Assembly (NCBI GenBank): GCA_934045905.1
Contig: OW203766.1
Span: forward strand, 16,920,309-16,984,308
Source of the DNA: Leuctra nigra
Lineage: Eukaryota; Arthropoda; Insecta; Plecoptera; Leuctridae
DNA: 64,000 bases
Reading direction: 5' to 3'
Shown: one piece after another, positions 4,459 to 59,526 of the stretch
Layout: each line of letters opens with the position of its first letter
Numbering within the stretch: position 1 is the first letter of the stretch
Notes under the pieces: generated by a model
The model's database searches: none
Seen by the model: the letters and a program-made list of their open reading frames with translations, nothing else
Told to the model about the DNA's origin: nothing
Program-made: the position numbers and the translations under genes

Positions 4459-4499
4459 TCATCGCGTCTAGCGTGTTGACACGTTGACTAGATGAATAG

Positions 4500-7704: not shown

Positions 7705-7810
7705 ACACGTGATCTAAAGGTCCCCAGGGACGCCAGGGATTCTTGCTAGGCTGGACAGCGTGAGGTGCCTAGTATTTCTTGCGTGTGGGACACATATTTT
7801 TACGCTGTAT

Positions 7811-8819: not shown

Positions 8820-9460
8820 GGGGGTGGGGACGTAAAAAAATGTTTTAAAATGTGCCGCGACCTGAGACCCTATTCTAGAACTTTTAAATTCCCAATTCTG
8901 ATGAAATCTGATTCAGTGCAATGTTAATCCTTATGGTCGTGACCGGATTCCATCAGGAATGGAATTGGGAAAACGTTCTAGAATACGCCTCCAGGTCGGC
9001 TGAATTTTAAAGGAGAGCATTATGATGACATGGAAATGAATATGAAGAATAGGTAAAACATCACCAGAAGAGCTCCACAAAGTCACGTCGTGTAGTGCAT
9101 CCAAGAATTATTTCTTAGGTATGAGCATCCACTCAAATGTGTTCGCATTGTATAAATAAAAGCAGGGGATGAACACGATTATCTTAATTTTCCATTGCGT
9201 AAAATAAAACAACTGCTTGTAAGTTTCATTTTCTTTATACGCTTCAAACCTTGGCCGTCAAAGCGAGAGGTCTGCCATGTAATGTATTGTATTTTAACAT
9301 TTATTGGGCGTGGGTAGAGTGGCTATACTCCCACTTAGCCCCATCGCTACAAGAAATACTTCTGCTCTCTGATCGACAAAGCATTCTGTTTTTCTGATGT
9401 ATAATGTAAAGGGTACTTGAACACAAACTGAAAGGGATTTTGAAATACTTAAACGTTTAA
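8820..9460. other. No gene recognised
   Basis: AT-rich, with an inverted pair CTATTCTAGAAC..TTTAAATTCCCAATTC (8871) and GAATTGGGAAAACGTTCTAGAATA (8958), about 20-bp arms, suggesting another small fold-back element at about 8870-8985. Confidence 0.4.
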
Positions 9461-9510
9461 GAGGGCTGAAGTGAGCGTGGCCTTGAAGAGTTTTTTTATC
9501 GATTTTTATC

Positions 9511-9788
9511 AATATCTTTTACCAATGTAATTGTTAACAAAATAGGGCTTTGTACGAGTCTTCAGAGCAGTTCAGTGAAAAAAATTTCATAGTTTGGAAT
9601 AAGTTATTAGTTTTATTTTGTCCAACAGATGTTTAGTGCCATAATTTTACTAATATTCGGGCACTAAACGTCTGTAGGACAAAGTAAATCTAATAAACCA
9701 TTACAAGCTATGGAATTATTTTCATTGAACTGTTCTGAATACTCGTACAAAGCCCTATTTAGTTATCAATTACATTGGTAAAAGATAT
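9511..9788. mobile_element. Palindromic MITE, ~125-bp arms
   Basis: The left arm starts CTTTTACCAATGTAATTG and the right arm ends CAATTACATTGGTAAAAG. Both arms carry GGGCTTTGTACGAGT/ACTCGTACAAAGCCC and TTTAGTGCC/GGCACTAAA around a ~25-bp centre. The sequence is absent at the symmetric site near 11241, which shows it is an insertion. Confidence 0.8.
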
Positions 9789-9790
9789 TA

Positions 9791-11240: not shown

Positions 11241-11939
11241 TATATTGATACAAATCGATTAAAAAAACTCTTCAAGGTCAAACTCACTACCCAGCCGTCT
11301 TAAGGCGATTCGACCGAAAATCTTTCAACAATTTCTTCATATTTCGATCGAGGATGTTGGCTACATAATAAAATAGTGCATCATTAATACTAATGATTCG
11401 TCATTAGTCATTTTGGGCACCACAAAATCTCCGGGACGTTCTGAATGTGTAAAATAAATGTTACTTGCGCTAAAGAATAGACAACACTATTTGTCTGAAA
11501 GAAACGAAACTTCGGGAGAATAAATTCACATGATTTTGCGTTCAAATATTACCGATTTAGTAGAGGCTACAGTCAAAGTAGGAAGGATGTACCCACCTGA
11601 CATTTGAGGGCGATCATTTCTTCCACCATGAACAAAAATAGCTGTCGGAGAAGTTTGTAGTGTGAAGAATTAATTTTATTGAACTTCATGAATTTTACGT
11701 TTATTTACAAATATAAAATTGACGTACATTTTTCGGTACAAAAGTCTTGTGGTAAAAAAGTGCCAGTGAGTACTGAGTTGTAGAATCACTTATTGAATGA
11801 GAATGAAAATGCTCTCTCGCCCCTTTGAGTGCAGTATAGTTTGACTAATTTACAAGTCCATACGTCAATTTATGGGTCAAGGGTCAATGCATTTTTTAAA
11901 TGTGAATGGAAATAAATCTGAATCTTTAAAATCTATTTA

Positions 11940-12091
11940 AGGGCCGGTATAACCAAAGTTAATCTGAGCCGGATTAACTAAATATTGGACTAAATTGGCG
12001 GCACAGCCAATCAGATACCTTAAAATGAGTGAAACAATTGAATCCAAAATTTAGTTAATCCAGCACAATTTAACTTTGGTTATTCCGGGCC
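11940..12091. mobile_element. Small palindromic MITE
   Basis: GGGCCGGTATAACCAAAGTT at the left and AACTTTGGTTATTCCGGGCC at the right, with further inner pairing (GGATTAACT/AGTTAATCC). It directly abuts the next element. Confidence 0.75.
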
Positions 12092-12617
12092 TAAGGTGCT
12101 TCAAGCGCTCGGCCGTTTTAGAAAATTGAGAGAGAAAAATTGTTTCATAAGTGGGTGTAACTTTGATAGGATGTTCACATGATCAGTCTGAGTGTATAGT
12201 AGCACTTTTTCATTTTAATTTTGTGCCTTGTTAATTAGGCGCCGGTTATGCAACAAAACCCCACAAAAGGATCAAATTTCCGATACGATTGGAGACCAAA
12301 CTCGTGAACCAATTAATCTCAAGTTTTAATCATGATTAGATGAAAGACAAACTTAGGGTTATCACTTGGCACTGTTTGAAAATTTATTTTATACGCTACC
12401 CAGCGAGACAAGAAAGTAGCTTATTTTTCACCAAAAATCCATTAATTAGTACTAATTAACGAAACAAAAAAATAAAATTGTACCAAATTTGTCTTTTATC
12501 TAATCACGATTAAAATTTCAAATAATTGCGTCATCCCATTTTGTCTCCAATCGTATCCAAAAAAGTGTCTACAAATTACAAAATGCAGCAAAATCGCTCG
12601 CGCTTGCAGCATTCTAA
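12092..12617. mobile_element. TTAA/GGTG MITE, copy 1
   Basis: Matches, in reverse orientation, the cleaner copy at 60098-60624. Shared words include AATTGAGAGAGAAAAATTG, TAATTAGGCGCCGGTT, CGATTGGAGAC and CGCGCTTGCAGCA. TTAA flanks are eroded here. Confidence 0.8.
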
Positions 12618-12969
12618 AGTTATTATGTGAGTGGGCCTCTAGCCTTTCCCAGACCTACGGGAGTCTGTATTTGAACTTGAACCCAAATTTCAGATATAAA
12701 TATTCTATTTTTGCTTGAGTGCTGTTTGACACTCATTAAGGCTGTGGTTTGCGGAATGCGAAATCGAGTCAGAAGTTCAAAGAGGAAGATAGCGTCAACA
12801 ATGATTACAAGAGTGAACATGAAGCAATATGGAAAGTGAAAGCTGAAATATTATGTGTCCCACTTCATAGGAATTATTCAAAAAGATACTACAATCGAGG
12901 GAATAATTTTTTATGTTAATTTGAATATTTTACTTAGTTACATTACAATACGAATACATAAATCTGTTC

Positions 12970-14020
12970 CTCGGAGGTAGAAGACCCGGAGTCCATTTAT
13001 TCGATTTTGCGTTGCATACTTTTGGAATAATTGAGCGAGCGTCACCACGGTACTCTTATGGCACTTTCTATGTGTGTTTGTTTTTTGTTTGTTTTTTTGC
13101 CTGCACTTCCCTGGTCAAACCGCTCAACCAATCGATCTGAAATTTTACACACATACTAGCGTAATCTATGCGGTCTCTGGGATCGTTTTTGAACGGGATC
13201 GTGTGATTGGTTCAAATTTAAAAAATATATATATTTCGATTGGTTGGTCCGATCAATTTGAAATTTTGCAAAGTCATTGCAGCCAACATTGTCTCCAATC
13301 TTACAAAGTTTCAGCCAAATCCTCCCATTGGTTAAAATTTAAAACCATCTTTCCTGTGATTTTTGAAATGTAAACTAGAACCGATTGACTGATCAACTTT
13401 AAACTTCGCATGGTCATTGGGACCAACAATTTAGGTATTTTTGCCAATTTGAAGACTTATCTGTCGTTATTTTCAAAAGTTATTGTTATTTTAAGGACAT
13501 TTTATTCTATAATCTTGAAATATTTAAATTTTCATCCCTGCCTTCTTGATGATTCAGTTCCAATTCCAAGTCCAAGCTGATACTTGCAAACGCGACGCCT
13601 ACCAAATCGGAAGAAATGAAGTATCGAAATGAATTCCACTGCAACTGAATCTGATTTGCTTTATACCAGAGTGTATAGATTGCTATTCTTAAGTTTCAAT
13701 AGAAAACAGATACTTTTATATTGATTGAGTGGATCCTATTTCAATTTAATATGGATGTAAAATGTTTCTGTGCGTTTGGTACGAAATTCCTGTTAAGAAT
13801 TTGCACGTACCCGTGCTCGCTCATCAACGCGTTACACTGAGCATTTTCCTAATATTATCATTGCAATGTGACTAAAGTCAACAAAAGTTATATTGAAATA
13901 TTCTCTTATACAATGTCTTATATGTCACTATAACATATAGGAATGATTGAAGGCAAATACTGATTTTTGAGCCCTCCTCAAGAATCATTGAAATCGACCT
14001 CGGGCCTTCTACCTCTGAGA
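12970..14020. mobile_element. MITE family M1, copy split by a Helitron-like insertion
   Basis: The left end CTCGGAGGTAGAAGACCCGG and right end GGGCCTTCTACCTCTGAG match M1 (5937-6145), as do ATTTTGCGTTGCATACTTTTGG and AAGAATCATTGAAAT. The middle is occupied by a family H element (13031-13853). Confidence 0.8.
13031..13853 (+). mobile_element. Helitron-like family H, copy A
   Basis: 823 bp from TTGAGCGAGCGTCACCACGG through a T-rich tract and CAATCGATCTGAAATTTT to the terminal CGCTCATCAACGCGTTACAC, then TCCTAAT. The AACGC...GC(G/A)TT stem precedes CTAAT, a match to the Helitron 3' CTRRT rule. No coding sequence. Confidence 0.7.
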
Positions 14021-14397
14021 TAATAAATAAAATATTTATAAAGGTTCCAACATTGTGTTGGCCTTGATTTCTGATAGCTTCGTGAATTTACATTCTTCCA
14101 GGAGTGCTCGATATTGGTATTTTCGAACAAGAATCACGTGGGCTGGGAATATAATTATCTTGACGCCTACACATCTTCTGCAAGGTCTGCTTGGCTTTGC
14201 TGCTGATACATCGCTCAATCACACGCAGCTTACAGACTGAGCCAAGTCAAGGGAATCTGTCGCCAAAATTCGACATCATCGATTAGATGCCATGCTAGAT
14301 TTGCTGTCTGAACAAAAGATTTTGTATCAGAATTCTGTAAAAAGGGTACAGAATATCCACCCAAATATTTCAATTAGTAAGAAAAATGTGTTGTAAC

Positions 14398-15409
14398 CAG
14401 GGGCGAAGCGTCAGGGGAGACAGGGGAGACAGTGTCTCCCCTGGAAAAAGCGGACAGTGCTGTTCATATCTTTCATACATTAAAATTTGCTGTAATTGTA
14501 TTTTATTTTTATGTATCGTAATTTTATTCGATGTATTAATTGGTGTTGTAATGAAAAACATTGATTGTCAGTTGAAAACCGTGCTCAATTTGGTGTCTTT
14601 ACGAGCGAGCGAGTGTTGCCGCTGCGCGCGCATCTCCTATCTTATAATCCGGGAGACATAAGCTACTTGTGTCCTCGCAGGCGAACGCAGAAGTATCTGC
14701 ATCCTTCTTCCACTCGTTGTTCACGCATTCATATGTTTTCTCCCACTCGCACTCACACTAACATCAGCCAGCCTATCCCTCGTATGGACATTCCATGCGA
14801 TAACAGTCTTGCAAAATAGACTCCGAGGTAGACGTGTCTCCTTGGTTATTATAATGTCCCTTGACAGCAACAAGAACATATTGACTGGAATGTACACACC
14901 GCAGTGCCATGCCAGCCGCCTCGCCTACGCCGTTGTGCAACACACACGACATTCGCATAAACGCACTATGTCAGCAGTAAAACTAAAAATATCTAGAAAA
15001 ATGAGTCAGACTTGAAAACAAGTCAGTTCACACATTGAAATTGCATTGATTAGACGTATTATTTCCTCCAGATATTTTAGTTCGTTAATCGTTTGTATTG
15101 TGTTTGTGTACGGTGTATTATTTAATAATTTATGTATCACTAAAATGGAAACTGACGTTGACAATGACGTTATCGATTATTTATTTATTAACAAACAGTT
15201 TTGCCGCATTTCATATTTTGCATTCATACGAATAAAAGTGTTCAATAAGATCAAACCGGCTTACGCCTCATCTCGATATTGTATAATATGTATAGAGATG
15301 GTAAAATAAGTCGTAATATACAAAAAATTTAGGTAAGCCAAAATACGCTATTTTCTATTTATTTGTTGTCTTGTGTCTCCCCAATTTTTGGAGGTACGCT
15401 TCGCCACTG
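14398..15409. mobile_element. Non-autonomous hAT element
   Basis: 1,012 bp with inverted ends CAGGGGCGAAGCGT and ACGCTTCGCCACTG. It is flanked by 8-bp duplications GTTGTAAC (14390-14397) and GTTGTATC (15410-15417), one mismatch. Subterminal GGGGAGACA motifs occur at both ends. No transposase frame. hAT is inferred from the CAG terminus and 8-bp duplication. Confidence 0.87.
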
Positions 15410-15912
15410 GTTGTATCAATAAAAAGTTGGTTAGCTAATGTTTAGTTTAGTTTATTTCCAATAGACAAGGTACAAGTAGGTACAATGCATGATACCCTTA
15501 AACATAGATATGCTTTGTTCAGGGTGTATGGAATATCATATTGCTAAAATATTGCTAATATGTGAAATGTTCAAAAAAAATTACTTATAAGATACTTGGA
15601 AAACGCTCTTTGAAACGCGTTTTGATAAGCGAGCCTTCGTATTGCATCAAAGTAATATTCATTTGAAAGTTGCATTGAACTGAATATTTTTGCTTAGCGG
15701 CGCGCCTCATCTTGTTCACTTTATTGGTGTAAAAGTTGCTGCTCTGGCAGTATTTAGGAAGACAATCAAACCAAATGCGTCATTGGATCAGTGATGAATT
15801 CACGAAAAAATTTGATAAATAATTCAAAAAAATCATAAAATGTCAAGTTCTCTCAAGTTCTTTGCAGATATAAATTAATTCGTTGATTTTATTTGAATAT
15901 TCAATAATAGTA
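15410..15912. other. No gene; degenerate family H 3' end
   Basis: GGAAAACGCTCTTTGAAACG and TTGATAAGCGAGCC near 15598-15640 resemble the family H 3' terminus on the minus strand. The rest is unremarkable. Confidence 0.4.
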
Positions 15913-16595
15913 GTGAGGGCTGTAAGCACAAAAATAGTGTAAAATGTGATATAAATTTTTCCTTTGGCAGTTTTATAGGAAATTTGCCGCTCTTTCATAA
16001 TTTCGAGATCCTCAAAAAATCGGACGGCCATTTTGGGCTCCAGGGCTGTCCAAAGTGCTAAAACATTTGTATTTCATTGAAATTATAAAACTTTTATCAA
16101 TTTATTGTTCAAGTATAATAAACAATGTGTCAGGAAGGTACGATAAAAAAATTAAAATTCTAAGACTAACCAAAGTTGTTTTTAATCAAGAAATTAAAGA
16201 TGTCGGCGGGTATGCTCTAAAATGACTGCCATTTTCAGGGAATTCGGGTTTCAAGGTTGCAGTTGATTATGTAGGTTCATAATATAGACATTTAACTTAA
16301 AAATCGATGTATCACGAAATTAACCCTTTGGGGGTGGGGGGTGGAGACCTAAACGTTTCGTTATCTGTAAAATAAACGACAGTAGATAGGGACTAATAAT
16401 TTCTTGCACACATTAATAAAACTGTGCTCTGTTCGAAAAAAATCACGAGATCCCAAAATTATGCCGCCATCTTGGATGAGACTCGTTTATATTTCGTTAT
16501 TTTGCGCACAGCAGTTGAAAAATTATGATAAATTGGCTACTTTGTTCATCCCTTGTTCACTGCAAAGGTATCGAGTCACCGCCCCCTGAACTAAA

Positions 16596-17419
16596 ACTAG
16601 GAAAACGCTCTGTGTAACGCGTTGATGAGCGAGCACGGATACACGCAACACCTCGAACCGAAATTATGTCTATCGAATGTCATTAAAAGCCAATAATTCT
16701 TTAGTTTCGTCACATACTTGTATAAAAATCTCCAAAATCTCCAAAAATATTGATGCCAATCCTTGCTAAGTTTTAAGTTGATCGATTAAACCTTTATGAT
16801 TGAACGGTTCCTTGTTAATTTTCAAAAATCACAGGATCTCGTTCAAAAAATATACCTGGGACCACCCATATGATATGATATGTAGTGTGTGTACACAATA
16901 TCAGATCAATCTGTTGAACGGTCATTATTAGTTTCATATCTTTTAAAACTTTCTGCTCTAACTACCTTGCCTTGAACTGTAGATTCGAAGTCGCCGTGAA
17001 TTTGACAGCCAACACGCAAAATGTCCCTAAAATGACAAAAACTTTTGAAAATAACGACAGATTAGAGTGAAAATTGGCAAAAATACTTTAAATGTTGGTA
17101 CCAATGACAATGCGAAGTTTTTAGTTGGTCGGTCAATCGGTTCCAGTTTAAATTTCAAAAATCACATGAAAAATGGTTTCAAATTTGAACCAATTGGAGG
17201 ATTTGGCTGAAATTTTTTTTCATTGAATACAATGTTGGTTGCAATGACTTTCCTAAATTTCAAATTGATCGAACCAACCAATCGAAAGATAATTTTTATA
17301 AAATTTGAACCAATCACAGGATCCCGTTCAGAAAAGATCCCAGGGATCGCATAGATTACGTTAGTATGTGTACAAAATTTCAGATCGATTGGTTGTGCGG
17401 TTTGTCCTGGGCAGTGCAG

Positions 17420-17461
<42 letters not shown>

Positions 17462-17519
17462 ACACACACAGAGAAAGTGCTATAAGAGTACCGTGGTGAC
17501 GCTCGCTACGCTCGCTCAA
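16596..17519 (-). mobile_element. Helitron-like family H, copy B
   Basis: 924 bp on the minus strand, from TTGAGCGAGCG (17519) through TCACCACGGTACTC, CACAGAGAAAG-complement, a 39-base homopolymer (17422-17460) and CCAATCGATCTGAAATTTT to CAACGCGTTACACAG and TCCTAGT (16596). Complete at both ends. Confidence 0.78.
17422..17460. repeat. A39 homopolymer followed by (CA)5
   Basis: Thirty-nine consecutive A on the plus strand, then CACACACACA. Other family H copies have a T/G-interrupted tract at the same place, so this one may be expanded or an assembly artefact. Confidence 0.9.
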
Positions 17520-18658
17520 TTAACTTATTCATAACTTATTATGAAATGTATTTAACTTTATAATTATTATAACAGATATTATACAGCCATTAAAACCTCA
17601 TTCAAAATTGAGCTAAAAGTTGACAGTAGATTTCAAGGTCGTCATTTTTACAGTGAAAGGTACTTATTGATGTCTGAGATTATTATTGTTTATTATGCTT
17701 TTGCGTCCTGAAAGCGTAAGTTTCAAGACTTGGCCTCAAACAAGATGCATTTACGTTAAATGCATCTCAACAATGTACTTCTTATTATCACTGATGATCT
17801 CTTGATTAGCTATCACTCAGTAATAACGTCATTTGTTATTCAGTTACTACTCTGACCAATGAGTGATTTAGTCTGTGGTCAACTCTACAGATAGCGCGCA
17901 CGTGGCTTAATTGCATTCCGAACAGCCCCTCAATGAAGACAGCGGTCAACTAATTGTAGTTGATTGCCAGTGTAATTAATGGACCTGAGCTGAATCGAGG
18001 AACAATTCAGTTGTTTTGATGTCAGCGAAATGTCGATACACAGCGTGAGAACTTGGATCGCCTTTCAAGCAGGGACTGGAACCGAAACTGGAACCGGAGC
18101 CCTTATTAATTTTTAAGGTGGAACCGGAACCGGAAATAAATATGAAACACTTTTCCACGAAACGTTCATGATGCTTACGGCGGACAACTTATCGTCCTAT
18201 CTTTGACATGCCCTATTCTCACAACATAAAGTTTAAAAAAAATTATAATAATTTATAAATCGCTATTTTTTCCTTATATGCATATTATTTAAACAATTTT
18301 TATTAAACAAATAAAAACAAGATGGAATTTTTGGCTTTCATAAATCATGCGAACTGTTCGTAGCTTAATTATAAATAAAATAATGAACTCTCTATCACAA
18401 AAATACTAGACGTTCTCTCTGTTGGAATATATCGTTCTGCCCTATAAAAGTAGTTTTTAGGAAAAATCAGTTTAAGATTGTACATTGTGTAATAACATCA
18501 TGACGCAAAGAAAATATTATCAATAAAAAAACTACCAATCGGATTCTCTCCGTTTTTTTTATTTTGGAATAGAAAAGCAGGTGATTACAAATAACCAACA
18601 AGAAAAAATTAGTAAAATAAAATGAATTATTGATTCATTATTTGATGAATTATTTTAA
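17520..18658. other. Non-family-H DNA between two family H copies
   Basis: 1.14 kb with no gene recognised. It contains a dispersed motif (TTTCAAGGTCGTCATT, 17635) also found beside Ms at 41868, and a GGAACCGG-repeat block (18075-18145) resembling an eroded TIR element. By the empty-site argument it may have been carried in with the flanking copies. Confidence 0.6.
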
Positions 18659-19194
18659 ACTAGGAAAACGCTCTGAGTAACGCGTTGATGAGCGAGCACG
18701 GATACACGCAACACCTCGAACCGAAATTATGTTTATCGAAAATGTCATTAAAAGCCAATAATTCTTGAATTTCGTCACAGACTTGTATAAATATCTCCAA
18801 AATTTCCAAAAATATTGGTCCCAATAACCTTGCTAAGTTTTAAGTTGATCGATTAAACCTTTGATTGAACGGTTCCTTGTTAAGTTTCAAAAATCACAGG
18901 ATATCTTTCAAACAATATACCTGGGACCACTCATATGATATGATATTACTGTGGACACAATATCAGATCAATCTGTTAAACGGTCATTATTAGTTTCATT
19001 TCGTTTGAAACTTTCTGCTCTAACTACCTTGCCTTGAACTAAAGATTCGATGTCGCCGTGAATTTGACAGCCAACACACAAAATGTCCCTAAAATTACAA
19101 AAACTTTTGAAAATAACTACAAATTAGACTGAAAATTGGCAAAAATACCTTAAATGTTGCTACCAATTACCATGCGAAGTTTTTAGTTGGTCGG

Positions 19195-19425
19195 TCAATC
19201 GGCAATACCCGCTGCACGAGAGCGGGTATTGCGTTGATTGTTTGAGTATCTCCTTGCAGCAGTCTGGTCGGGGGTCTCTTTGCTCCTTGATGCTTTATTA
19301 TTAACGACATTTTGTTTCAACCTTTTAGATTTAGCTTCGTCAGTTTCTTGATCTTCAATTTCACGCAGACGCTTTTTCGCCTTTATGGCTTTCATTCTAG
19401 CAGAAGTCTTTCCATTTTTCGGCAT
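19195..19425 (-). pseudogene. Fragment resembling the N-terminus of Helitron Rep/Helicase
   Basis: A 76-codon frame starting MPKNGKTSARMKAIKAKKR. It is highly basic, with ...KASRSKETPDQTAARR... followed by NQRNTRSRAAGIAD. The ETP(D/E)QTAARR-type motif in a Lys/Arg-rich context is characteristic of the N-terminal extension of arthropod Helitron replication-helicase proteins. Everything after it (Rep domain, helicase) is missing: the frame meets a stop where normal family 3' sequence (GATTGACCGACC) resumes, so an internal deletion removed ~95 percent of the protein. The final codons overlap a 12-bp perfect hairpin (19202-19232). The assignment is by remembered motif, not by search. Confidence 0.5.
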
Positions 19426-19619
19426 GTTTAAATAGGGATAAGATAGGTAATGAAAAAGTAAGAAGTAGAGTACCTACCTAATTAAAGTACAATAATATTT
19501 GTGTGATCAATGTTTGAAATGCACGAAATGTGTGCTCAAAGACGTAATGTATTCAATGTCGTAATGTTACGAAATGAATCTTGAACAAAACATCGCAAAT
19601 ATGAAAATAAAGTAAACAC

Positions 19620-19860
19620 CTTTCAACTAATAAGCGAAAGGAATCAAAGTTCCACACAAAAAAACGGATCAGGTAAAATAGTAACTACCTAGTTTAGAAA
19701 CGGAATGAATCCAACGTTCCACAATTAAAATAAGACAACGTAATGTTTTGAACTGAATGAATCAAAACTTTCAAAAAAAATAGCAACCTTCAAGGAAATG
19801 TCAGGCTAGACAGAAGCTCAGAAACGGAATAAATCCAACGTTTCCAAGAAGAAAATAATT
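19620..19860. repeat. Four degenerate direct repeats upstream of the Helitron-like frame
   Basis: GAAACGGAATGAATCCAACG and variants at about 19633, 19696, 19752 and 19821, spaced about 56-70 bp apart, directly 5' of the open frame (minus-strand sense). They may be promoter or iteron-like units of the element. Confidence 0.6.
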
Positions 19861-21512
19861 TGAAATAATCAATCCCCTGGACAAAAACTGTAGATACCTA
19901 ATATCTATGCTTTAAAAGCGATTCAATTTTACTAATACCTTCACAAAGTACACCAAATTGCCAAAATTATCAACGAAAAGAAGCAAAATGCAGGAGAGAT
20001 TTGGAATGACGTGTGAACGCTAGAAGAGAACAAACGCCACTCAATGATATTATTGAAATGTGAGCTTATGTTTCTAATCCCTCCTGGATGCAAAATCAGC
20101 CAAGTAGAAACACGGGAGGCACGGCCATTAGAACTACGAATTGACGAAAAGACAATCAAGGTCCATAAAAACTCGAAATGATTTGTTGGAAACTATGATC
20201 CAAATTGAATTATTCAAATTTGATCAACTCAATAAACATAAAAATATCTGCTTTTCACTAAAAAACTGTACATACCATCAAAACACTCTTGTACCTAAAG
20301 CAAATCAGATTCAGTTGCATTGGAAAGACATTCATTTTCAATGTTTCATTTCTGACAGCTATTAAAATGTCAATAAGTGCATACTTTCTTGACAGATTCG
20401 GCTGAAAATTTGTAAAATAAGTGACATTGTTGGTCTTACTGACCATGCTAAATATGAGTTTGATCACATTTCTCGAAGACCATTTTCATTTTTTAGGCTA
20501 TCAGGAGATACTTATTTTAACAATGAACCAATGGATGGATTTAAAAAAAAAATTGGGTCTGCAAACAGAGAAGGTTGTCTTTACATGTGTGCAAAATTTC
20601 AGGTCGATCGGTGAAACGGTGCGACTTCCATTGCTTCCTTTAGCATACAAAAACAAAAACAAAAAAAAAAACAAAAAAAAAAACAGAGGTCCGTGCTAAA
20701 AGAGCCAAATGGAGTCGCTCGCTTCGCTCGCTCAAATTACATGTTAAAATCCCTATCTTGGGACGTTTTATCAACACACAAATGAAGTTTTAGGGAGAAC
20801 GGTTGGAGATACAGAAAATATGTAAATTACAAATGTCTTTATTAGAATTAGTGCTATATTTTATGTCAAATAAACTTTTTCGTATTGCATGCAAAACGTG
20901 CTTAAATTTACGAAAAAAGAAAAAGAAACACTTTTTATCCAAGATGGCGACCTAATTTTGAGTTCTCGTATTTTTTTTTGAAGATAGCATATTTTTTTAA
21001 GTATGTGCAAGAAATCAATTTATTGTAGCTAGTATGGGCTATTGTACAGATATCGAAACCTTTAGGTCTCCACCCTCCACCCCTCAAAGGGTTAATTTCG
21101 TGACCCATCGATTTTTAAGATAAAGGTCCATAATTTGAACCTACATAAGCAATTGCAACCTTGAAACACAAATTCCCTGAAAATGGCGGTCATTTTAGAG
21201 CGTACCCGCCGACATCTTTAATTTCTTGAATAAATACAACTTTGGTTAGGCTTAGAATTTTTATTTTTTTATCGTACCTTCCTGAAACATGGTTTATTAT
21301 ACAAGAACAATAAAATAACAAAAGTTTTATAATTTCACTGAAATACAAATTTTTTGGCACTTTGGACAGCCCTGGGGCCCAAAATTGCCGTCCGATTTTT
21401 TGAGGATCTCAAAATTATGAAAGAGCGGAAAATTTCCTATAAAACTGCCAAAGGAAAAATTTATATCACATTTTGCACTATTCTGCCAATATGATGTGCT
21501 AACAGCCCTCAC

Positions 21513-35228: not shown

Positions 35229-35732
35229 CTGATCAGACAAAGAGGACTTATTATAAGGGTTTGACATCTCCGAGGAAAATGGAATGAAGAACAGACTTGT
35301 GGTAACGAAGCTGTCACCAATGTCTCATTGCACGTGCGTGCGCAACTAGTAACATGTACTTTCAAAATATCACGGATTTCCTGAGGAGAGTAGGTACATA
35401 ACCCTAAAATAGATCCTACTTTTAATATTTAGAATAAGAAAGACATATTACATATCTTCTTTGTTTCTTGATACTAGAATTTCAATCAAAGTTTTACAGC
35501 ATCTATGCGATGTGGACATACATGCCCGGGACCGGGTAAGCTGGAAGCAACATGAAGAAGTAAAGTCTCTAATTGAAAGAGCAATCATTGAATGCTATCA
35601 TTAAAAGTTATATATTTTCCAATTGAAAAATGAAACGCATCATCATTTTCGCATCATTGAATTGATCTAAGTTGCATATATACACTTGTTTTTAATTGCA
35701 AAGAAAGATATTGACAAATTATATCGTTCGCT

Positions 35733-36500
35733 GCCTGGAATGAGTAATGTCCAATCATCGCAACTCTCTGAGCTTTTAGAGCATCTGACTTGAAAGTTAG
35801 GTGCGCAACTCTGCGACGCCAGAAGGGATCAACTGAACTGCTTCCGTATCGACTTGCAGGAAGTATCAATGTAAACAATCGGAAAGCAAATACAACGATT
35901 CCCTTGCACGTATTTACCAGAGTTGCCTAGAATGAGTAATGTCCAATCATCGCAACTCTCTGAGCTTTTAGAGCATCTGACTTGAAAGTTAGGTGCGCAA
36001 CTCTGCGACGCCAGAAGGGATCAACTGAACTGCTTCCGTATCGACTTGCAGGAAGTATCAATGTAAACAATCGGAAAGCAAATACAACGATTCCCTTGCA
36101 CGTATTTACCAGAGTTGCCTAGAATGAGTAATGTCCAATCATCGCAACTCTCTGAGCTTTTAGAGCATCTGACTTGAAAGTTAGGTGCGCAACTCTGCGA
36201 CGCCAGAAGGGATCAACTGAACTGCTTCCGTATCGACTTGCAGGAAGTATCAATGTAAACAATCGGAAAGCAAATACAACGATTCCCTTGCACGTATTTA
36301 CCAGAGTTGCCTAGAATGAGTAATGTCCAATCATCGCAACTCTCTGAGCTTTTAGAGCATCTGACTTGAAAGTTAGGTGCGCAACTCTGCGACGCCAGAA
36401 GGGATCAACTGAACTGCTTCCGTATCGAGTTGCAGGAAGTATCAATGTAAACAATCGGAAAGCAAATACAACGATTCCCTTGCACGTTTTTAACAGAGTT
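35733..36500. repeat. 192-bp tandem array, 4 units
   Basis: Units begin GCCT(G/A)GAATGAGTAATGTCC at 35733, 35925, 36117 and 36309 and are nearly identical; the fourth has CGAGTTGC for CGACTTGC. Each contains TAGAGCATCTGACTTGAAAG...TTAGGT...GCGACGCC, reminiscent of a tRNA D-arm/anticodon/T-arm order, but the boxes are imperfect. Confidence 0.92.
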
Positions 36501-39244: not shown

Positions 39245-40516
39245 CTAGCGACGTCTGCCGAACCTCAGGAACACGTGATCGACGTCTTGGCGCTTGACGC
39301 CGCCGTCGATCCGGTCCGCGCTGGTGCCAAGTGGGTAGCCGGCTGAAACATGGACGTACATGTGGCAACGTTGACAGGGAACTTAATTAAAACGTTGGGA
39401 TCCTAAGTACTCCCCGAAGATGACAATGTAATCCTAGTATAGGGGAGAGAGGGGTAAATGTGGACATATGTAGCCCCCTCTTCCCTACACACCGCCATTG
39501 AAAGAAGTGATTGAGAGGATCAACTTGGGTCAACTTGGGATTACCTTCCAGGGAACAGTACACCACCTACAGGGAATGAAATGAAAGAAAAGCTCAAAGC
39601 AATTCTAGTGTGATATGAGTGATAAAACACGAGATTTGCCCAACTACTGTACCCAGGATGTTTGTCTTATTCTAGTATTGATTCTAAATCTCACGTGACC
39701 TTCTTTCCATCTAATACTTACGACAAGAAATTTCTCATTTATACCAAGTCACAATTTGCACTCTACATACTTCTAGAAGAGAAGTTTTTTGATGAATAAT
39801 TTGTTCACGACGACATAACTGCACTCAAATTTCAATAATGTCGTTCTTTCTGACATCTGATTTCCAGCTCTTTTTCGGCGAGCGTGTATTTATTTTACAC
39901 ATTTATAAATGTCTCAGAATTTTTAGTGGCATCTAAAAATGGGCAAAACACCTATAACACCTATAACATAATATGCAGGAAAAGTAATATGCTAAAATAG
40001 TCTAAAGTAAAAGGTTCCCGTGTATATCAAACCCTTCAGTTTCAATCAACGAAAAAGGGTTGAAGTCGCAGTCGGATTAGAGCGATTTTCGTGCAACAAT
40101 CGCGAAAAGTTAGCTCAACTTCAATAATTCGCGCGATTGTCGTGCGACTCAGTGCGTCAAATCAATTACAGAGGCCAGTTTATAATGTTGGTAGATGGCA
40201 TCAAATTGCTGTCAAATCGCAATTATGGGAATTCAATATGGAATCTTACTTTAGAAAATTTTCTGAAACTTTAATACTAATTTTCCTTGTCTTGCAAACA
40301 AAGAAAGTAGTTACCTTTCTCATTAAGATATGTTTCCATTGCGCCTGACAACTCATAGATCGATGCTAACTTCATACAGACGTTCCTTATGTTAAGTGGC
40401 ATATCGTCCAAGAGTGCTGGGCTGCATTGTGGTGGTGGTAGTGCCGACCCCTGCCGTGGTGAGCACGCTAGTAGCACGCTCAGGACACTCAACGCTGCGA
40501 TCATGGTAGACTTCAT
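39245..40516 (-). CDS. Ms: Myosuppressin neuropeptide precursor, join(39245..39342, 40315..40516)
   Basis: Insect FMRFamide-related peptide that inhibits visceral muscle, made as a secreted precursor in neurons and endocrine cells. The first coding exon (40516 down to 40315) has 67 codons plus one base. It encodes a signal peptide (about residues 1-25, hydrophobic core [11 protein letters not shown]) and the family's conserved spacer [15 protein letters not shown]...NVC...IYELS...ETYL, with cysteines at 31 and 47. A phase-1 donor (AAAG|GTAAC) ends it. The second coding exon (39342 to 39245) follows acceptor TGTTTCAG, keeps the frame and encodes KR, then [10 protein letters not shown] (residues 86-95), the amide-donor glycine, RRR and stop TAG. 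Total 99 residues, normal for the family. The start is fixed by an acceptor TTGCAG|G directly before ATG, so at least one 5' untranslated exon lies upstream (higher coordinates, not identified). The oddity is the array of copies of this exon start just upstream. No coding defect seen. Confidence 0.95.
39343..40314 (-). other. Ms: Ms intron between the two coding exons
   Basis: Phase-1 intron of 972 bp. The donor is GTAACT at 40314-40309 on the minus strand and the acceptor TTTCAG ends at 39343. It is AT-rich and I saw no second peptide exon in it. Joining the flanking exons gives an uninterrupted frame with exactly the expected precursor order, so no extra coding exon is needed. Confidence 0.85.
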
Positions 40517-41444
40517 CCTGCAACATCACAAGCAAGAGTGTCGTGAGAGTCAAGGTCGCGTTATGTGAGCCGTGCCGTGCCGAGCCAGGCTAGTAGCACG
40601 CTCAGGACACTCAACGCTGCGATCATGGTAGACTTCATCCTGCAACATCACAAGCAAGAGTGTCGTGAGAGTCAAGGTCGCGTTATGTGAGCCGTGCCGT
40701 GCCGAGCCAGGCTAGTAGCACGCTCAGGACACTCAACGCTGCGATCATGGTAGACTTCATCCTGCAACATCACAAGTAAGAGTGTCGTGAGAGTCAAGGT
40801 CGCGTTATGTGAGCCGTGCCGTGCCGAGCCAGGCTAGTAGCACGCTCAGGACACTCAACGCTGCGATCATGGTAGACTTCATCCTGCAACATCACAAGCA
40901 AGAGTGTCGTGAGAGTCAAGGTCGCGTTATGTGAGCCGTGCCGTGCCGAGCCAGGCTAGTAGCACGCTGAGGACATTCAACGCTGCGATCATGGTAGACT
41001 TCATCCTGCAACATCGCAAGCAAGAGTGGCGTGAGAGTCAAGGTCGCGCTATGTGAGCCGTGCCGTGCCGAGCCAGGCTAGTAGCACGCTCAGGACACTC
41101 AACGCTGCGATCATGGTAGACTTCATCCTGCAACATCGCAAGCAAGAGTGTCGTGAGAGTCAAGGTCGCGCTATGTGAGCCGTGCCGTGCCGAGCCAGGC
41201 TAGTAGCACGCTGAGGACATTCAACGCTGCGATCATGGTAGACTTCATCCTGCAACATCACAAGCAAGAGTGTCGTGAGAGTCAAGGTCGCGCTATGCGA
41301 GCCGTGCCGTGCCGAGCCAGGCTAGTAGCACGCTCAGGACACTCAACGCTGCGATCATGGTAGACTTCATCCTGCAACATCACAAGCAAGAGTGTCGTGA
41401 GAGTCAAGGTCGCGTTATGTGAGCCGTGCCGTGCCGAGCCAGAC
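40467..41444 (-). repeat. 122-bp tandem array (8 units) of the Ms splice acceptor, start codon and signal-peptide codons
   Basis: The motif GATCATGGTAGACTTC recurs at 40499, 40621, 40743, 40865, 40987, 41109, 41231 and 41353, exactly 122 bp apart. The last unit carries a 2-bp GA insertion (124 bp). Read on the minus strand, each unit holds a pyrimidine-rich tract, acceptor TTGCAG|G, ATGAAGTCTACC and 17 Ms signal-peptide codons ending ...VLLA. It then runs into intron-like sequence that reads WLGTARLT and stops, instead of the real [12 protein letters not shown]. Only the unit nearest the gene continues into the true exon. Units differ by a few substitutions; units 5 and 7 share CTGAGGACATT. 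The period is not a multiple of 3, so the array does not form a long coding repeat. Confidence 0.93.
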
Positions 41445-41452
41445 AGCGCTGA

Positions 41453-41795
41453 ACCGGGTCGTGCTGTTGACTACAAAAAGGCACTACATGGGACGACTAC
41501 TAAATGGCGACCTTGAAACATAAAAGTCAAGCCATGTATTAGATTGCCATACAGCAATCTATTAAAAAGGATTTATAATTGAGATAAATGACTCGGCCGT
41601 GGCAGTATATTTATTATTTATTTATTAAATAATAAATTAAGACCGAGAACCGGGTCGTGCTATTGACTACCAAAAGTCACTACATGGGACGACTATTAAA
41701 ATCAATTACCTTTAAGAATGGCGACCTTGAAACATAAAAGTCAAGCCATTTATTAGATTGCCATACAGCAATCTATTAAAAATTATTTATTATCA
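41453..41795. repeat. Tandem duplication beside the Ms array, period about 193 bp
   Basis: GAACCGGGTCGTGCT starts at 41453 and again at 41646, each followed by TTGACTAC, CTACATGGGACGAC, GGCGACCTTGAAACAT and an ATTGCCATACAGCAATC hairpin. A related tail (TTCAAGGTCGTCATT) also occurs near 17635, so the unit belongs to a dispersed repeat. No coding content seen. Confidence 0.7.
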
Positions 41796-41799
41796 TTAT

Positions 41800-44082
41800 A
41801 AATATCATCACAGATCATTAAAGTCGTATTCAAAATTGAGATAAATGACTACAGATTGACAGTAGATTTCAAGGTCGTCATTCTTATGGTGAATGGATTC
41901 AGAAATGAATGGAAATGAAGTAATAAATATTGGGATCTTGGAGGAGAAAGTGACATACCTAATCTAAAAATTATATTATAAAGTGTTTTTTTATACAATT
42001 ATCGCATATCTACAAAGCTATCCATCTCTATTGTAATATCTACACATTTCGTATAAAACATTTTTTTAAGTAGATACATCTATTCAGTTGTCATATTATG
42101 TTAAATCTGCTGTATACGATCGACTTATTAGTCAGAAAAATAGAAATGTGAGCCATTTCTCTTGAATTACCTTCAAATTCGCGAGTATTTATTCAACAAA
42201 ATTTCTCATATATTTTCTCTTTGTAAACGATTCTAAAGACCCTTAAAATTAGAGGGCGTCTGTTGGTATCTAACATCAAAGCAATTTAAATGAAACGAAC
42301 CTCCCACCTTCAGTTTCACACTTCACCTCGAGTCAATTGAAATTGAAATCTCCTATCTCAATAGATCTCATCCTCGCTTACAAAGCAGACGATTCCAAAA
42401 ACACCTTTTCACCGTACAAGTTGGTCAGAGCATCGCAATCGTCTCTTGCACTTTGTACCTCGATTCATTGGATCAACCTACAGGTCGTATTAGCTTCTGT
42501 TGAAGCCATTTGCATGAGGAAACAATCAAAACGCCGTGAGCTATTCAATACAATGCGATGAATATTCCACGCGCGATTGTGCTCATTCTCAATGGAAGTT
42601 TACGAGAACTCGATGATGCAACGTATAATGAAGATCGTAATGAGACATGTTGCGAGAAGATCAGAGAACCTTTGTGATTTTACGGAGGTAAATTCTTGGA
42701 TTATATTTCATGAATTCTTAAAAATAAGATCATCAACTTATAAATACAGTATGGCCAAACTTGATTCAATGGTATAGAAATGGAGGTATTTGTCTACCTC
42801 GGAGGTAAAAGGACGCAAGTCCATGTCAATGGTTTTTGAGGTGAGCGCAAAAAACAGTAATTCTGACGCCATCTAATCATATTTGTAATGGTGACATGAG
42901 TCATTGGGTAAGAGAATACTTAAATATAACTGTGTTTGCTGACATTTTATTGAAACTATTGGTTTTTGTCGCTAGTGAAAAAAATAACAATTGCAATATA
43001 TGTTTCAATATGTGTATCACGGCAATCCGCAGCAAACTAACTTTCGAAAATAAGAAATAATTATAAAAAAATTAATTAAATTCGGTAATTTACCAGGAAA
43101 CATTAACTTAAATTTAAAAATCCCGTTTTCAAAGAAATAACCGATTCAGAGTTTGATTGATTTTTGTACGCCAATATCTACATATTTTCTGAAGAGTGCA
43201 AACAATTACATCATCAGATAAACAACAAGATTTCACATTACTGATTGGCTGGTTTCATACAGCGTGACATTTTCAAATTGTCAATAGGCTTAACAGAAAC
43301 TGGTCATGTATACTAGTTGATATAGAGATTATAAAATAAGACCTTAATCCGTTATAAAACCTCATAATGCTTATTACTTAACTCGTGTACGCCACATAAC
43401 TGGGTAAAGTGAACTCTTGCCCCTGCAGTTAATACCCGCCCGGTCGCCCGGCGTTTAGCACGAGATTATGTATTAATAATGCGAGCAGTCAGGTGGGATA
43501 TAATCTCGCCTCTTACGAGACAACCCACGTAGAACGCGAGAGCGACTTGAGTCTCGCTATTGGGCTGATTACATTCTTCATTATAATCGAAAATAAATTG
43601 ATCAAATGAAAAGTCTGTTACTGACACGATGCTGTTAATATTGTCAAAATGTTTGGATATGAAATAAAATTAGACGGAGATTGAAAATTAAACGTTTTTA
43701 AAGTTGCCAAATCAAGTCGTCCCTGAAATATTTCTAAAATTATACGCGACACATCATATCGAAGTGGCCTATTTTCAGGGTGCGAATTGTTGGGGGGGAT
43801 GGGGGGGATTTCCCCCCTCTGATTTTATCATCCCCGGCTCTGTTTCCCGATAAAACATCCCAGAGGGGGGTAGATTCCCCCCCCCCCCCTCTGTAAAATG
43901 TTGACTTTTAATATACGAAACAACAGATTACCAACTTTTTTTGAAATAAATCTAAAATTATAAAAATAAATTGTCACACAAAACAACTGTCAAATTGCCT
44001 TTATTAGCAAATCAGCTGTGTTTGATAAGATTTATTTTACTTGCCCCCCACTAATACTGATTTCCCTTTAAATTAAAAGCAA
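41800..44082. other. Upstream region of Ms, no exon identified
   Basis: 2.3 kb in which the Ms 5' untranslated exon or promoter might lie (minus strand). It includes a partial M1-like fragment (CTCGGAGGTAAAAGGACG, 42798), a GC-richer island (43420-43560) and long G/C runs (43790-43890). No confident regulatory site. Confidence 0.4.
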
Positions 44083-50649: not shown

Positions 50650-51018
50650 CTAATTTGAATTGTGATTAAATTTATAAATAACTTGTTCTTTGATAGTTTC
50701 AACCCAAATATTATCAAATTCTAAACTTCCCTGGCTTATAATACCAATTTTTTCTTTCTTCAAACATTCCATAACTGCACTCTCCTTAAATTTTCTCTTC
50801 TTCCAATTCTCTTCATTCATTATCCTCTTCGTTACATTCCAATCTATGTCGTGATTTAATTCAGTTGTATGTTCGGCTACTAAAGATTTTGTTAATGATA
50901 AATTCCAAGGTTCTTTCTTTTTATTTTTAATGTTGCATTTGTGTTCTTTTAATCTCACTTCCAAAGGGCGTTTCGTTTCTCCTATATAGAAATCCCCACA
51001 TTGGCATTCCAGCCCATA
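50650..51018 (-). pseudogene. Penelope-like GIY-YIG endonuclease fragment
   Basis: The minus-strand frame reads YGLECQCGDFYIGETKR, then LEVRLKEH, later LVAEHTTELNHDIDW and ending FNHNSN-stop. This is the C-terminal GIY-YIG nuclease of Penelope-like retroelements: CxC before FYIG, catalytic arginine in RLKEH, then the H..NH segment. About 122 codons are element-derived. Residues that an uninterrupted frame adds upstream (from 51150) come from the antisense of the inverted right arm and are not real protein. The reverse transcriptase that should precede it is missing, so it is a truncated remnant. Confidence 0.85.
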
Positions 51019-51019
51019 T

Positions 51020-51190
51020 ATGAATGAAGAGAATTGGAAGAAGAGAAAATTTAAGGAGAGTGCAGTTATGGAATGTTTGAAGAAAGAAAAAATTGGTATT
51101 ATAAGCCAGGGAAGTTTAGAATTTGATAATATTTGGGTTGAAACTATCAAAGAACAAGTTATTTATAAATTTAATCACAATTCAAATTAG
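51020..51190 (+). pseudogene. Second, inverted copy of the Penelope endonuclease C-terminus
   Basis: The plus strand encodes ...NWKKRKFKESAVMECL... to FNHNSN and a stop, the same C-terminal ~56 residues as the minus-strand frame. It is cut off upstream at the palindrome junction, so it cannot encode a functional nuclease. Confidence 0.75.
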
Positions 51191-56470: not shown

Positions 56471-56707
56471 ATGGCGGCCCTCCGGCGCTATATAACCGGA
56501 ACAACTCGACTAAGGGAAGGAAACCCTAACAGAAAAACCAGAAAGGAGACAACCTTTATCTTTAAAAAACAATACCAATTTCCTCTGCCATTGCCGGTCC
56601 CAAGCCCGGATGAGAAAGGAGGAGGGCCATCCTCTGGCGAGGCTAGCAACCTACCAGGGGATGTAAAACTATACATGCTCACAGAACCAATAATTGGCCT
56701 CGGATGA
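56471..56707 (+). CDS. RTE-like ORF1, short, function unknown
   Basis: A 78-codon frame starting MAALRRYITG, rich in basic residues in its first third and in proline/serine/glycine later (FPLPLPVPSPDEKGGGPSSG). No recognised domain. Its TGA stop overlaps the ORF2 start as ATGA, the arrangement expected for termination-reinitiation. RTE elements often have such a small ORF1, but a role has not been inferred from sequence here. It could instead be a chance upstream frame. Confidence 0.55.
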   Translation: MAALRRYITGTTRLREGNPNRKTRKETTFIFKKQYQFPLPLPVPSPDEKGGGPSSGEASNLPGDVKLYMLTEPIIGLG

Positions 56708-59526
56708 ACGGATTGTCGAACCCTACGATGAACCCTGCGAGAAAAAGGAAATTGAGTATTTGGAAAAAATCAAACATAATGAGAATAGGTACCTGGAATA
56801 TACGCTCTTGGAATAACAGGGACCAGGAAATTATTAATGAACTTGAGAATTTTAACATCGATATATGTGCCATTTCTGAGACAAAGAAGAAAGGGAAGGG
56901 TATTATGCAATATGGAAAATACTCTCTGATTTACAGCGGAGTGGATAAAGGTTGTAGAGCGAAAGAGGGAGTGGGAATATTGTTGCACAACAAATATGCA
57001 CGCTGCATAAATGAGTGCAAGTACATTTCAGAACGCATACTTATGGTGAATTTACAGACCGATCAAGGAAACATCAATATTATATCAGTGTATGCCCCAG
57101 AGAATAACAAGCCTGCGCATGAAAAGGACAAGTTCTTTGACGATCTTCAAGACACTGTAGACAGTGTTATTGGAGGCGAAAGGATAATTTTGCTGGGGGA
57201 CTTCAATGCTCGAGTGGGAAATGACATAATACCAGGGGTAAAACACCGGTTCAATGAAGATGTCTTAAACGACAACGGAGAACAATTAGTTATGTTTTGT
57301 GCAAGCAATGAACTTCGTTTAAATAACACTTTCTTTGATCACAAACTCCAGCATAAGTACACGTGGGAGAATACTAGGGGTCACAAATGCACCCTTGATT
57401 ATATACTAACGAATAGAGGGATACATCCAACCCAGATACTGGATGTTCGTAGTTTAATTTCAGCTGACATTGGAAGTGATCATAGACTAGTATTAAGTAA
57501 AATGAGACTCAAATTTAGAAAGACCGTTAAATTAGAAAAGGTGTATGAAACGAAATATAACATTGAATCTCTACACGATATTTCCACTACAATCTTATAT
57601 ATGAACAGACTTAAGAGTAAAATTGATCTCACAAGTGTTACTGAGGAAGACGATGTAAATCAGAGTTGGAACAAGATTAAGCATAATATCATGGGAGCGG
57701 CAGAAGAAGCACTTGGACAAAGAAGAGTGTTAGCTAATAAAGATGATTGTAGCACAAGGAAAACACCCTGGTTCTGCGAAGAAGTCAAAGCACTCTCTCA
57801 ACAGAAGAGAGAGGCATATTTGGCTCATCGCAATCAGAATACACAGCAGTCATACTTGGAGTATAAGGTGGTTAGAAATGCAGTGAATGCAGATATTAGA
57901 AGAATAAAACAAGGATATTGGGAGAAGTTCTCAAAGGAAATGGAACACGACTTTTTTGGGCTGCAGAAGCAAGTATGGAAAATAATACAAAATCAAAAAA
58001 AAGAAATAAAAGAATTCGTGGAAACCAAAAAAATAGAAATGGATAAGTGGACGCAGTACTTCACCAACTTATTTCAGGGAGCAGAGATGAGTGAATTGGA
58101 AGATGTCGGACAGAATGTAGAAGAAGTGAGTGTGTCGGAGACTGAAGTGAGAATTACATTAAAGAAGCTAAGAAATAGAAAATCGCCCGGGGAAGATGGT
58201 ATTACTAATGAACTTCTAAAATATGGAGGATCAGCACTTGCGGGAGAGATAACAAAACTCTTAAACAAGATCATGGAGAATTCTAAAATCCCTGATGAGT
58301 GGAGGACAAATATTTTAATACCCATTTTCAAGAAGGGCGATAAAATGGAGCCGGGAAATTATCGGGGAATAAACCTTTTATACACCATGCTCAAATTCAC
58401 AACCAAGATCATTACAAGTAAGCTCGACAATTTAATAGAGCTACAAGATGCACAGCAAGGATTTCGGAGGGGCAGATCATGCATTGATGCAATATTTGCA
58501 GTAAGACAGATTGTAGAGAAATCTTTGGAATACAACAACCCTGCATACATGTGTTTTATTGACTTGACAAAGGCATTTGATCGAATCCGGCTGATAGACA
58601 TAATCAATATCCTCATTCAAAGGAACATTCCACAGTCTATCATTAGAGTTATACAAGATATCTACAGCAATAGTAAAATTAAGGTCAAATGTAACGGACA
58701 GTTCTCTGAACCAATTGATATGAACATGGGTGTAAGGCAAGGAGATTCTTTAAGCCCGCTTCTTTTTAACTTGATTATGGATGAAATTATAAAGTCTGTT
58801 CGAGGAATTAAAGGATACAGTTTGGGTAGAAGTACGATAAATATTATTTGTTATGCAGACGACGCTATATTAATAGCTGATAACGAGGACGACTTACAGA
58901 GATTGGTTTTTAGGTTTAATAATGCTTGTAGTTTGTATAATATGGAGATTTCTACAAATAAGACGCAGACAATGACGATTGCTAAAGAGCCCATTCGATG
59001 CAAAATAGTGGTTAATGGTGACATTATTGAGCAAGTTTTAGAATACAAGTACTTGGGAACGACTATCACCAGTTATGGACACATAGAGAAGGAGGTGAAT
59101 GGACAAATCATGAAGGCCAACAGAGTAGCGGGATGTTTGGGAGATGTTATATGGAGGAACAAGTTCTTGCGCCAGGATGCGAAGTCGCAGATATATAAGA
59201 GCGTAATAAGACCCATTATATCCTATGCTTCTGAAACAAGACCCGACACATCTAAGACAAGACATCAGTCGCAGGTAACCGAAATGAAAGTCTTAAGAAG
59301 AATATTAGGTAAAACGAGACTGGATCGGATACGGAATGAAAGTATAAGGGACACCTGCAGAGTTACAGATGTGGCTGATTGGATTAAAGAAAGAAGACTT
59401 CTTTGGGATGAACACATTTCAAGGATGGATCAAGGGCGATTAGTTAGGGTTGCACGGGACAATCGGCCCAGAGGAAAGAGAAGAATAGGACGTCCAAACA
59501 AGAGATGGAAGGATTCATTAGAATGA
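56704..59526 (+). CDS. RTE-like ORF2: APE endonuclease and reverse transcriptase
   Basis: An intact 940-residue polyprotein that nicks target DNA and reverse-transcribes the element RNA onto it. Residues ~26-271 form an APE-type endonuclease: TWN (30-32), SET with E59, VYAPE (Y130), GDFNARVG (D166, N168), LDY (D232) and SDH (258-260) are all present. Residues ~535-790 are the reverse transcriptase: QGFRRGRS (585-592), FIDLTKAFD with catalytic D620, GVRQGDSLSP (676-685), YADD (717-720) and YKYLG (781-785). The C-terminus has SETR...LRRILGKTR and GRPNKRW (929-935), common in insect RTE/craniofacial-protein-2-like LINEs. No frameshift or stop interrupts it. The methionine at 56704 is taken as start because it overlaps the ORF1 stop; the endonuclease would also fit initiation at M26. 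Confidence 0.93.
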   Translation: MNGLSNPTMNPARKRKLSIWKKSNIMRIGTWNIRSWNNRDQEIINELENFNIDICAISETKKKGKGIMQYGKYSLIYSGVDKGCRAKEGVGILLHNKYARCINECKYISERILMVNLQTDQGNINIISVYAPENNKPAHEKDKFFDDLQDTVDSVIGGERIILLGDFNARVGNDIIPGVKHRFNEDVLNDNGEQLVMFCASNELRLNNTFFDHKLQHKYTWENTRGHKCTLDYILTNRGIHPTQILDVRSLISADIGSDHRLVLSKMRLKFRKTVKLEKVYETKYNIESLHDISTTILYMNRLKSKIDLTSVTEEDDVNQSWNKIKHNIMGAAEEALGQRRVLANKDDCSTRKTPWFCEEVKALSQQKREAYLAHRNQNTQQSYLEYKVVRNAVNADIRRIKQGYWEKFSKEMEHDFFGLQKQVWKIIQNQKKEIKEFVETKKIEMDKWTQYFTNLFQGAEMSELEDVGQNVEEVSVSETEVRITLKKLRNRKSPGEDGITNELLKYGGSALAGEITKLLNKIMENSKIPDEWRTNILIPIFKKGDKMEPGNYRGINLLYTMLKFTTKIITSKLDNLIELQDAQQGFRRGRSCIDAIFAVRQIVEKSLEYNNPAYMCFIDLTKAFDRIRLIDIINILIQRNIPQSIIRVIQDIYSNSKIKVKCNGQFSEPIDMNMGVRQGDSLSPLLFNLIMDEIIKSVRGIKGYSLGRSTINIICYADDAILIADNEDDLQRLVFRFNNACSLYNMEISTNKTQTMTIAKEPIRCKIVVNGDIIEQVLEYKYLGTTITSYGHIEKEVNGQIMKANRVAGCLGDVIWRNKFLRQDAKSQIYKSVIRPIISYASETRPDTSKTRHQSQVTEMKVLRRILGKTRLDRIRNESIRDTCRVTDVADWIKERRLLWDEHISRMDQGRLVRVARDNRPRGKRRIGRPNKRWKDSLE

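Follow-up and report, generated by a model that had tools for sequence, protein, structure and literature searches.

Does the tandem array that precedes the myosuppressin gene of the stonefly Leuctra nigra serve this one neuropeptide gene, or does it belong to something that happens to exon edges throughout this genome? The array lies in a stretch of 64,000 nucleotides, which was analysed as a whole and is called the window here, and it repeats what looks like the end of an intron together with the head of the first coding exon. The myosuppressin gene thus carries several apparent 3' splice sites and start codons, of which only one leads into the precursor.

The myosuppressin gene and its array

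The gene is encoded on the minus strand (Table 1), and joining its two coding exons gives a precursor of 99 aa. This precursor matched the myosuppressins of Periplaneta americana (3.3e-25), Bacillus rossius (3.1e-23), and Carausius morosus (1.4e-21). Six of the 11 candidates in the protein search had an E-value of at most 0.01, three of which were named myosuppressin and three unnamed. As in insect myosuppressins, the C-terminus consists of a KR site, the myosuppressin peptide, a glycine for amidation, and basic residues.

Table 1. Positions of the myosuppressin gene, its array, and a neighbouring repeat in the window
Feature	Position	Strand	Basis
Tandem array, 8 units of 122 bp	40452..41442	-	TRF, unit split, unit geometry, two-unit query
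Seven decoy units, each opening a 25-codon frame	40574..41427	-	Unit split, junction positions
Real first coding exon of myosuppressin, 203 nt, starting within unit 8	40315..40517	-	ATG 40516-40514; donor AAAG/GTAACT
Intron separating the two coding exons, GTAACT...TTTCAG	39343..40314	-	Sequence
Second coding exon, through the stop codon	39245..39342	-	Sequence
Myosuppressin peptide and amidation Gly	39257..39289	-	Invariant block, 7-sequence alignment
Dispersed repeat copy, about 200 bp, close upstream of the array	41693..41899		Genome query

TRF described the array with a period of 122, 8.1 copies, 97% matches, and a score of 1870 over 991 bp, and a separate repeat search found eight copies in register at 122-bp spacing. 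Splitting the array at its junctions (41427-40452) also gave eight units, and all seven spacings were 122. As is typical of a minisatellite, the units thus stand head to tail with high identity. Each unit is composed of 71 nt of intron-like sequence ending in TTGCAG and 51 nt of exon head, namely a G, the ATG, and signal-peptide codons. The 71-nt part ends CTTGTGATGTTGCAG (with one base changed in two units), and the 51-nt part opens GATGAAGTCTACC. Across the junction, marked here by a slash, all eight units read TTGCAG/GATG on the minus strand (40517, 40639, 40761, 40883, 41005, 41127, 41249, and 41371). Units 1, 5, and 7 are identical to the consensus, whereas units 2, 3, 4, and 6 differ from it at 4, 2, 5, and 1 positions, respectively; two of the variants are common to units 2 and 4, and one is common to units 3 and 4.

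Units 1-7 encode MKSTMIAAL(S/N)VLSVLLA, followed by 8 further residues and a stop, and 44 nt lie between the stop of each of these frames and the next ATG. Unit 8 (40573-40452) agrees with the consensus up to and including the second base of codon 17, after which it departs into the precursor. Codon 17 specifies alanine in both cases, with GCG in the real exon and GCC in the adjacent copy. As the Periplaneta precursor also contains LLACSPR, which extends across the point at which unit 8 parts from the repeat, unit 8 is the real exon head. From the sequence, we infer that the acceptor immediately before the myosuppressin ATG is the predicted end of an intron. An earlier note on this DNA had described eight 122-bp units, each with an apparent acceptor, the ATG, and 17 signal-peptide codons, and had stated that only the gene-side unit joins the precursor while the other seven read into an 8-residue tail and a stop. 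All of this was borne out by TRF, the unit split, and the repeat search; the position it had given, 40467-41444, is right to about 15 bp, and the minus strand had been left unstated.

The genome was searched in the assembly of 536,196,549 bases in 144 contigs, with very common words skipped. A query of two units gave four matches, all in the same array, and hence one candidate locus. Copies of the unit at other loci, as expected of a transposable element, were not found by this two-unit query with very common words skipped, and the earlier proposal that the gene itself, not a transposon, gave rise to the repeat therefore holds. The dispersed repeat upstream (Table 1) behaved differently: it gave at least 1485 first-look candidates genome-wide, and 39 of the 40 matches scored were elsewhere in the genome, all within about positions 240-457 of the query. 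This repeat is the neighbour of the array and not its source. Directly beside the array, 41451-41589 is a diverged partial duplicate of the same flank, with pieces of 54 to 87 nt that are about 92% alike.

Several other features were seen in the window. An array of 192 bp x 4 with 99% identity (35732-36500) lies downstream of the myosuppressin stop at a distance of about 3 kb, and another, 99 bp x 5.5, has a higher-order period of 200 bp (1108-1653). A 959-aa open frame (56647-59526) reads, by eye, as a putative endonuclease and reverse transcriptase of a non-LTR retrotransposon, and a 170-aa open frame (50653-51162) has a GIY-YIG match (3.9e-06, above the Pfam cut-off) of a kind found in some retroelements. 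An Rfam scan of the 64-kb window gave no match at the gathering thresholds.

Junction arrays at other loci

The survey drew 20 stretches, each 10 kb long, from ten scaffolds by fixed round coordinates; three others (L026-L028) were also placed at round coordinates. The stretches L025 and L029-L031 were targeted and are excluded from all rates. With a period of at least 40 and a TRF score of at least 100 as the threshold, the 230 kb contained 23 arrays, 22 of which were in the first 20 stretches and one in L026-L028, and the window contained four further arrays. Five of the 23 arrays, in three of the 23 stretches, have the same anatomy as the myosuppressin array, and they belong to a zf-AD zinc-finger gene, a TRP-channel gene, and a kringle gene. 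With three other loci in the 23 placed stretches, there is no support for the claim that such an arrangement is confined to a neuropeptide gene.

In the zinc-finger gene (L007), about 21 copies of TTTGACATTGACAG, followed across the junction by ATATCGC..., are spaced at 121 bp, and the last copy runs into a zf-AD exon (Pfam 1.4e-8, model 36-73 of 75), after which CACAG/GTATGC follows. A 200-N scaffold gap lies within this array (L007 1014-1213), hinting that long arrays break the assembly. In the TRP-channel gene (L009), CTCTGTCCAG followed by GTGTACC... is present in three copies at 70 bp, the last of which runs into the TRP-channel exon. Here, exons flank the array on both sides, and joining the TRP exon to the preceding exon gave a TRPC5 match of 1.9e-18 across the junction. 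The kringle gene (L012) has acceptor arrays of 145 bp (19.5 copies) and 128 bp (21.9 copies) ahead of two kringle exons (1.8e-11 and 2.7e-4), and a 71-bp array at a third kringle exon (5.7e-6) is on the donor side, so that it begins with the real exon as its first copy, followed by 20 further junction copies; the matches of the second and third kringle exons fall short of Pfam's cut-off. In the targeted 10 kb after this stretch (L025), the last copy of an acceptor array of 116 bp x 48 opens a long coding frame, for which no Pfam match was found. The kringle gene region, L012 and L025 together, thus holds four arrays of about 20 to 48 copies.

In each of the seven junction arrays, the rest of the exon is present once and continues from the end copy that faces it. 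The periods outside the myosuppressin gene are 70, 121, 145, 128, 71, and 116; as none of them is a multiple of three, most extra copies would shift the reading frame if they were used. We rejected the absence of multiples of three in the seven arrays as a signal in itself, since (2/3)^7 is about 0.06 and thus not significant. As the same layout is found in unrelated genes, it looks like a habit of the genome and not like a switch of the myosuppressin gene. The finding is in this sense broader than one gene: this is a genome in which exon edges have repeatedly been multiplied on the intron side.

Some arrays were left uncounted. The window array at 3165-4459 (108 bp x 12, 99% identical, GC 0.56, open frames on both strands) is possibly a junction array with a TTGCAG/GG motif. 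Its sequence includes CCATGTTGCAG followed by GGCC... as well as a short frame that stops at TGA, but no gene could be recognised there. A query of two units found no locus other than this one, and the Pfam hits of the array, which were to unrelated families with frames on both strands, were rejected as repeat-composition artefacts. The arrays at L009 4141-4400, L015 8384-9762, and L019 3745-4589 have raised GC, and no junction was recognised in them; the last of these looks like repeats inside a coding frame.

Scaled to the genome, five arrays per 230 kb correspond to about 11,700 (95% interval 3,800-27,200), or to about 7,000 (1,400-20,400) if they are counted as three loci. A recognised exon was present in at least 8 of the 23 stretches (L007, L009, L010, L012, L017, L020, L021, and L026) on the basis of selected frames sent to Pfam or PDB, with the exon matches of L021 and part of those of L012 below the cut-off, and three of these eight exon-bearing stretches have a junction array. 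No arrays were found at the visible exons of O-GlcNAc transferase (L010, L029) and the DEAD-box helicase (L017, L031), and the process is therefore far from universal. Arrays cover 20,626 of 264,000 bases (7.8%, including the window), and a GC content of at least 0.5 was found in 9 of 26 arrays (6 of 22 without the window) versus 6.0% of 5000 random windows.

With junctions assumed to lie 3 kb apart, 0.84 of the 23 arrays would be expected to touch one, whereas five did so (P=0.0018; P=0.054 by three loci). This spacing was extrapolated from the gene and intron counts of another leuctrid, for which PMC12929795 gives 12,857 genes and 6.9 introns per gene. An enrichment of arrays at exon-intron junctions is thus suggestive at the 3-kb spacing assumed. 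As a tentative generalisation, which we hold with somewhat less than even confidence, a genome-wide process might preferentially multiply exon-intron junctions, with thousands of arrays and up to dozens of near-identical splice sites by an intact exon. Introns would then grow by copied exon edges, and the spliceosome would have to pick the one real junction.

Origin of the copies and competing explanations

The myosuppressin array probably belongs to a class of exon-junction tandem arrays in Leuctra nigra, in which a junction-spanning duplication was amplified by unequal exchange or slippage and tolerated since the exon-joined junction would be the one that is spliced. In the myosuppressin gene, a segment made up of the 71 nt of intron end and the 51 nt of exon head would have been duplicated in tandem, and the duplicated segment may then have been multiplied by either of these two mechanisms. 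The extra copies would sit on the intron side and be removed together with the intron, with exon definition presumably picking the exon-joined acceptor, which gives an exon of normal length (203 nt from 40517, versus 325 to 1057 nt from the seven others). As the extra copies are on the intron side, a transcript spliced at the exon-joined junction would be unchanged, and with an unchanged mRNA, junction duplications would be tolerated and able to expand, unlike duplications wholly within exons. The copies themselves would be near-neutral.

Constraint on the copies was analysed in five pooled arrays with 99 copies; the TRP and donor arrays were left out, and copies of non-standard spacing or with more than 10% of positions off the consensus were dropped. 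The copied exon parts (415 nt) had 45 distinct variants and the copied intron parts (217 nt) had 24 (Fisher P=1.0), and selective constraint on the copied codons was therefore not detectable in the five pooled arrays. The myosuppressin array alone had 2 distinct variants in 51 exon nt and 5 in 71 intron nt. Of the five arrays in which copies differed at all, four had fewer raw differences per site in the exon parts than in the intron parts, two of them by a clear margin, but this lower exon divergence was gone once distinct variants were counted, and the shared ancestry of the copies can produce such a raw gap. The acceptor AG was intact in 113 of 114 anchor hits in five acceptor arrays, and the exception looks like a spurious fuzzy hit. 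In the donor array (L012 9846-10000 and L025 1-1349), GT was present in 21 of 21 junctions, and the intron side GTRAGTGT had only a G/A change at +3, while the rest of the unit diverged. This retention of splice dinucleotides is the main observation that a purely neutral reading explains poorly, although it speaks weakly, as few losses are expected at low divergence.

The intact dinucleotides in nearly all examined copies also lean mildly toward what the earlier note had proposed, namely that the copies are regulatory decoys. The upstream acceptors would then be partly used, bringing up to seven of the 25-codon upstream frames into the mRNA, and translation of myosuppressin would be damped or tuned. 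The eight sites indeed have TTGCAG/GATG and the ATG context GCAGGATGA in common, the acceptor AG is kept in 8 of 8 myosuppressin copies, and the position of the copies 5' of the start codon means that their use leaves the precursor unbroken. However, divergence is too low for the dinucleotides to weigh much, and the pooled variant counts given above reveal no constraint on the copied codons. Internal coding exons of unrelated genes moreover show the same anatomy, and using a copy there would usually break the protein; nothing special marks the myosuppressin locus. The reading as regulatory decoys is not supported here, and we consider it unlikely. The copies would appear in the mRNA as repeated mini-exons if each internal unit were spliced as a small intron of its own, as in the potato RdRp gene, where a duplication of the same type created a new intron (PMC4974935). 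By sequence, every myosuppressin unit does span the boundary in this way, with an acceptor-like end and an exon head. A donor supplied by the copied exon piece was nevertheless not found: scored with a weight matrix, the best GT in the unit reached 1.5 and the best in the exon part -2.2, whereas six donors of this genome scored 8.1 to 12.0. Such mini-introns are very unlikely, and as there is no donor-like GT in the myosuppressin unit, a simple extension of the intron is to be expected.

Two further explanations deny that there is a repeated junction. If no intron ended at TTGCAG, the array would be an ordinary minisatellite of the promoter or 5' UTR with a chance acceptor-like motif, and the fact that no exon was identified upstream of the array fits this. 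Against it, TTGCAG exactly heads the copied exon segment and is preceded by a pyrimidine-rich tract, just as at the domain-verified internal exons of other arrays, which makes a chance motif quite improbable. That the assembler multiplied a single real unit is hardly credible, even though the gap inside the zinc-finger array suggests that arrays do trouble assembly and the contig N50 is only 0.6 Mb. The assembly was made from HiFi reads with 12-20 kb fragments at 32x and has a QV of 57.2, so that an artefact is unlikely for an array of about 1 kb, which lies well inside such fragments. In addition, the patterned differences between the units fit evolved copies and not stutter.

Implications and comparison with known systems

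Each array is a natural experiment on splice-site choice, in which 3 to 48 acceptors or 21 donors have nearly the same local sequence and only one is, by anatomy, attached to the exon. Should only the exon-attached site be used, local splice-site strength and a rule of first transcribed, first used would be insufficient, and exon definition must decide. Should other junction copies be used as well, these genes leak mis-spliced RNA. The arrays also represent a concrete route to intron lengthening, and they are a warning for genome annotation, as gene finders may call the copies exons or alternative starts.

We know of no genome with such arrays. Among the titles and abstract openings listed from open-access journal papers, none described such arrays, and the potato RdRp gene was the only close case. 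Minisatellites, or VNTRs, are tandem units of high identity that probably expand by slippage or unequal exchange. The arrays of Leuctra nigra resemble them in having highly identical tandem units of about 70-145 bp but differ in that the unit is a splice junction with an exon edge of the adjacent gene and the copy at the end serves as the working exon. Tandem or competing 3' splice sites, of the NAGNAG type and at longer distances, place several acceptors ahead of one exon. The likeness lies in the several usable-looking acceptors, whereas the predicted acceptors described here are near-identical, lie 70-145 bp apart, and each carry exon sequence.

A study on locust and termite myosuppressin genes (PMC4237046) describes a signal peptide encoded in a common first coding exon and the peptide itself in a later one; the variation in the locust consists of two alternative peptide exons, and the termite gene is described as resembling that of other insects. 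The layout of the Leuctra nigra gene is alike, but its repeated acceptors are a feature of their own and not the variation seen in the locust. In the potato RdRp gene (PMC4974935), one duplication of the 3' end of an intron and the head of the next exon yielded a new intron, which arose through a cryptic donor recruited from the exon. There, too, the copy crosses the intron-exon boundary and inherits the acceptor with its tract. The potato case is, however, one duplication in one gene that led to an extra exon, whereas in Leuctra nigra several loci are involved, with 3 to 48 copies each, and the myosuppressin unit lacks a donor-like site.
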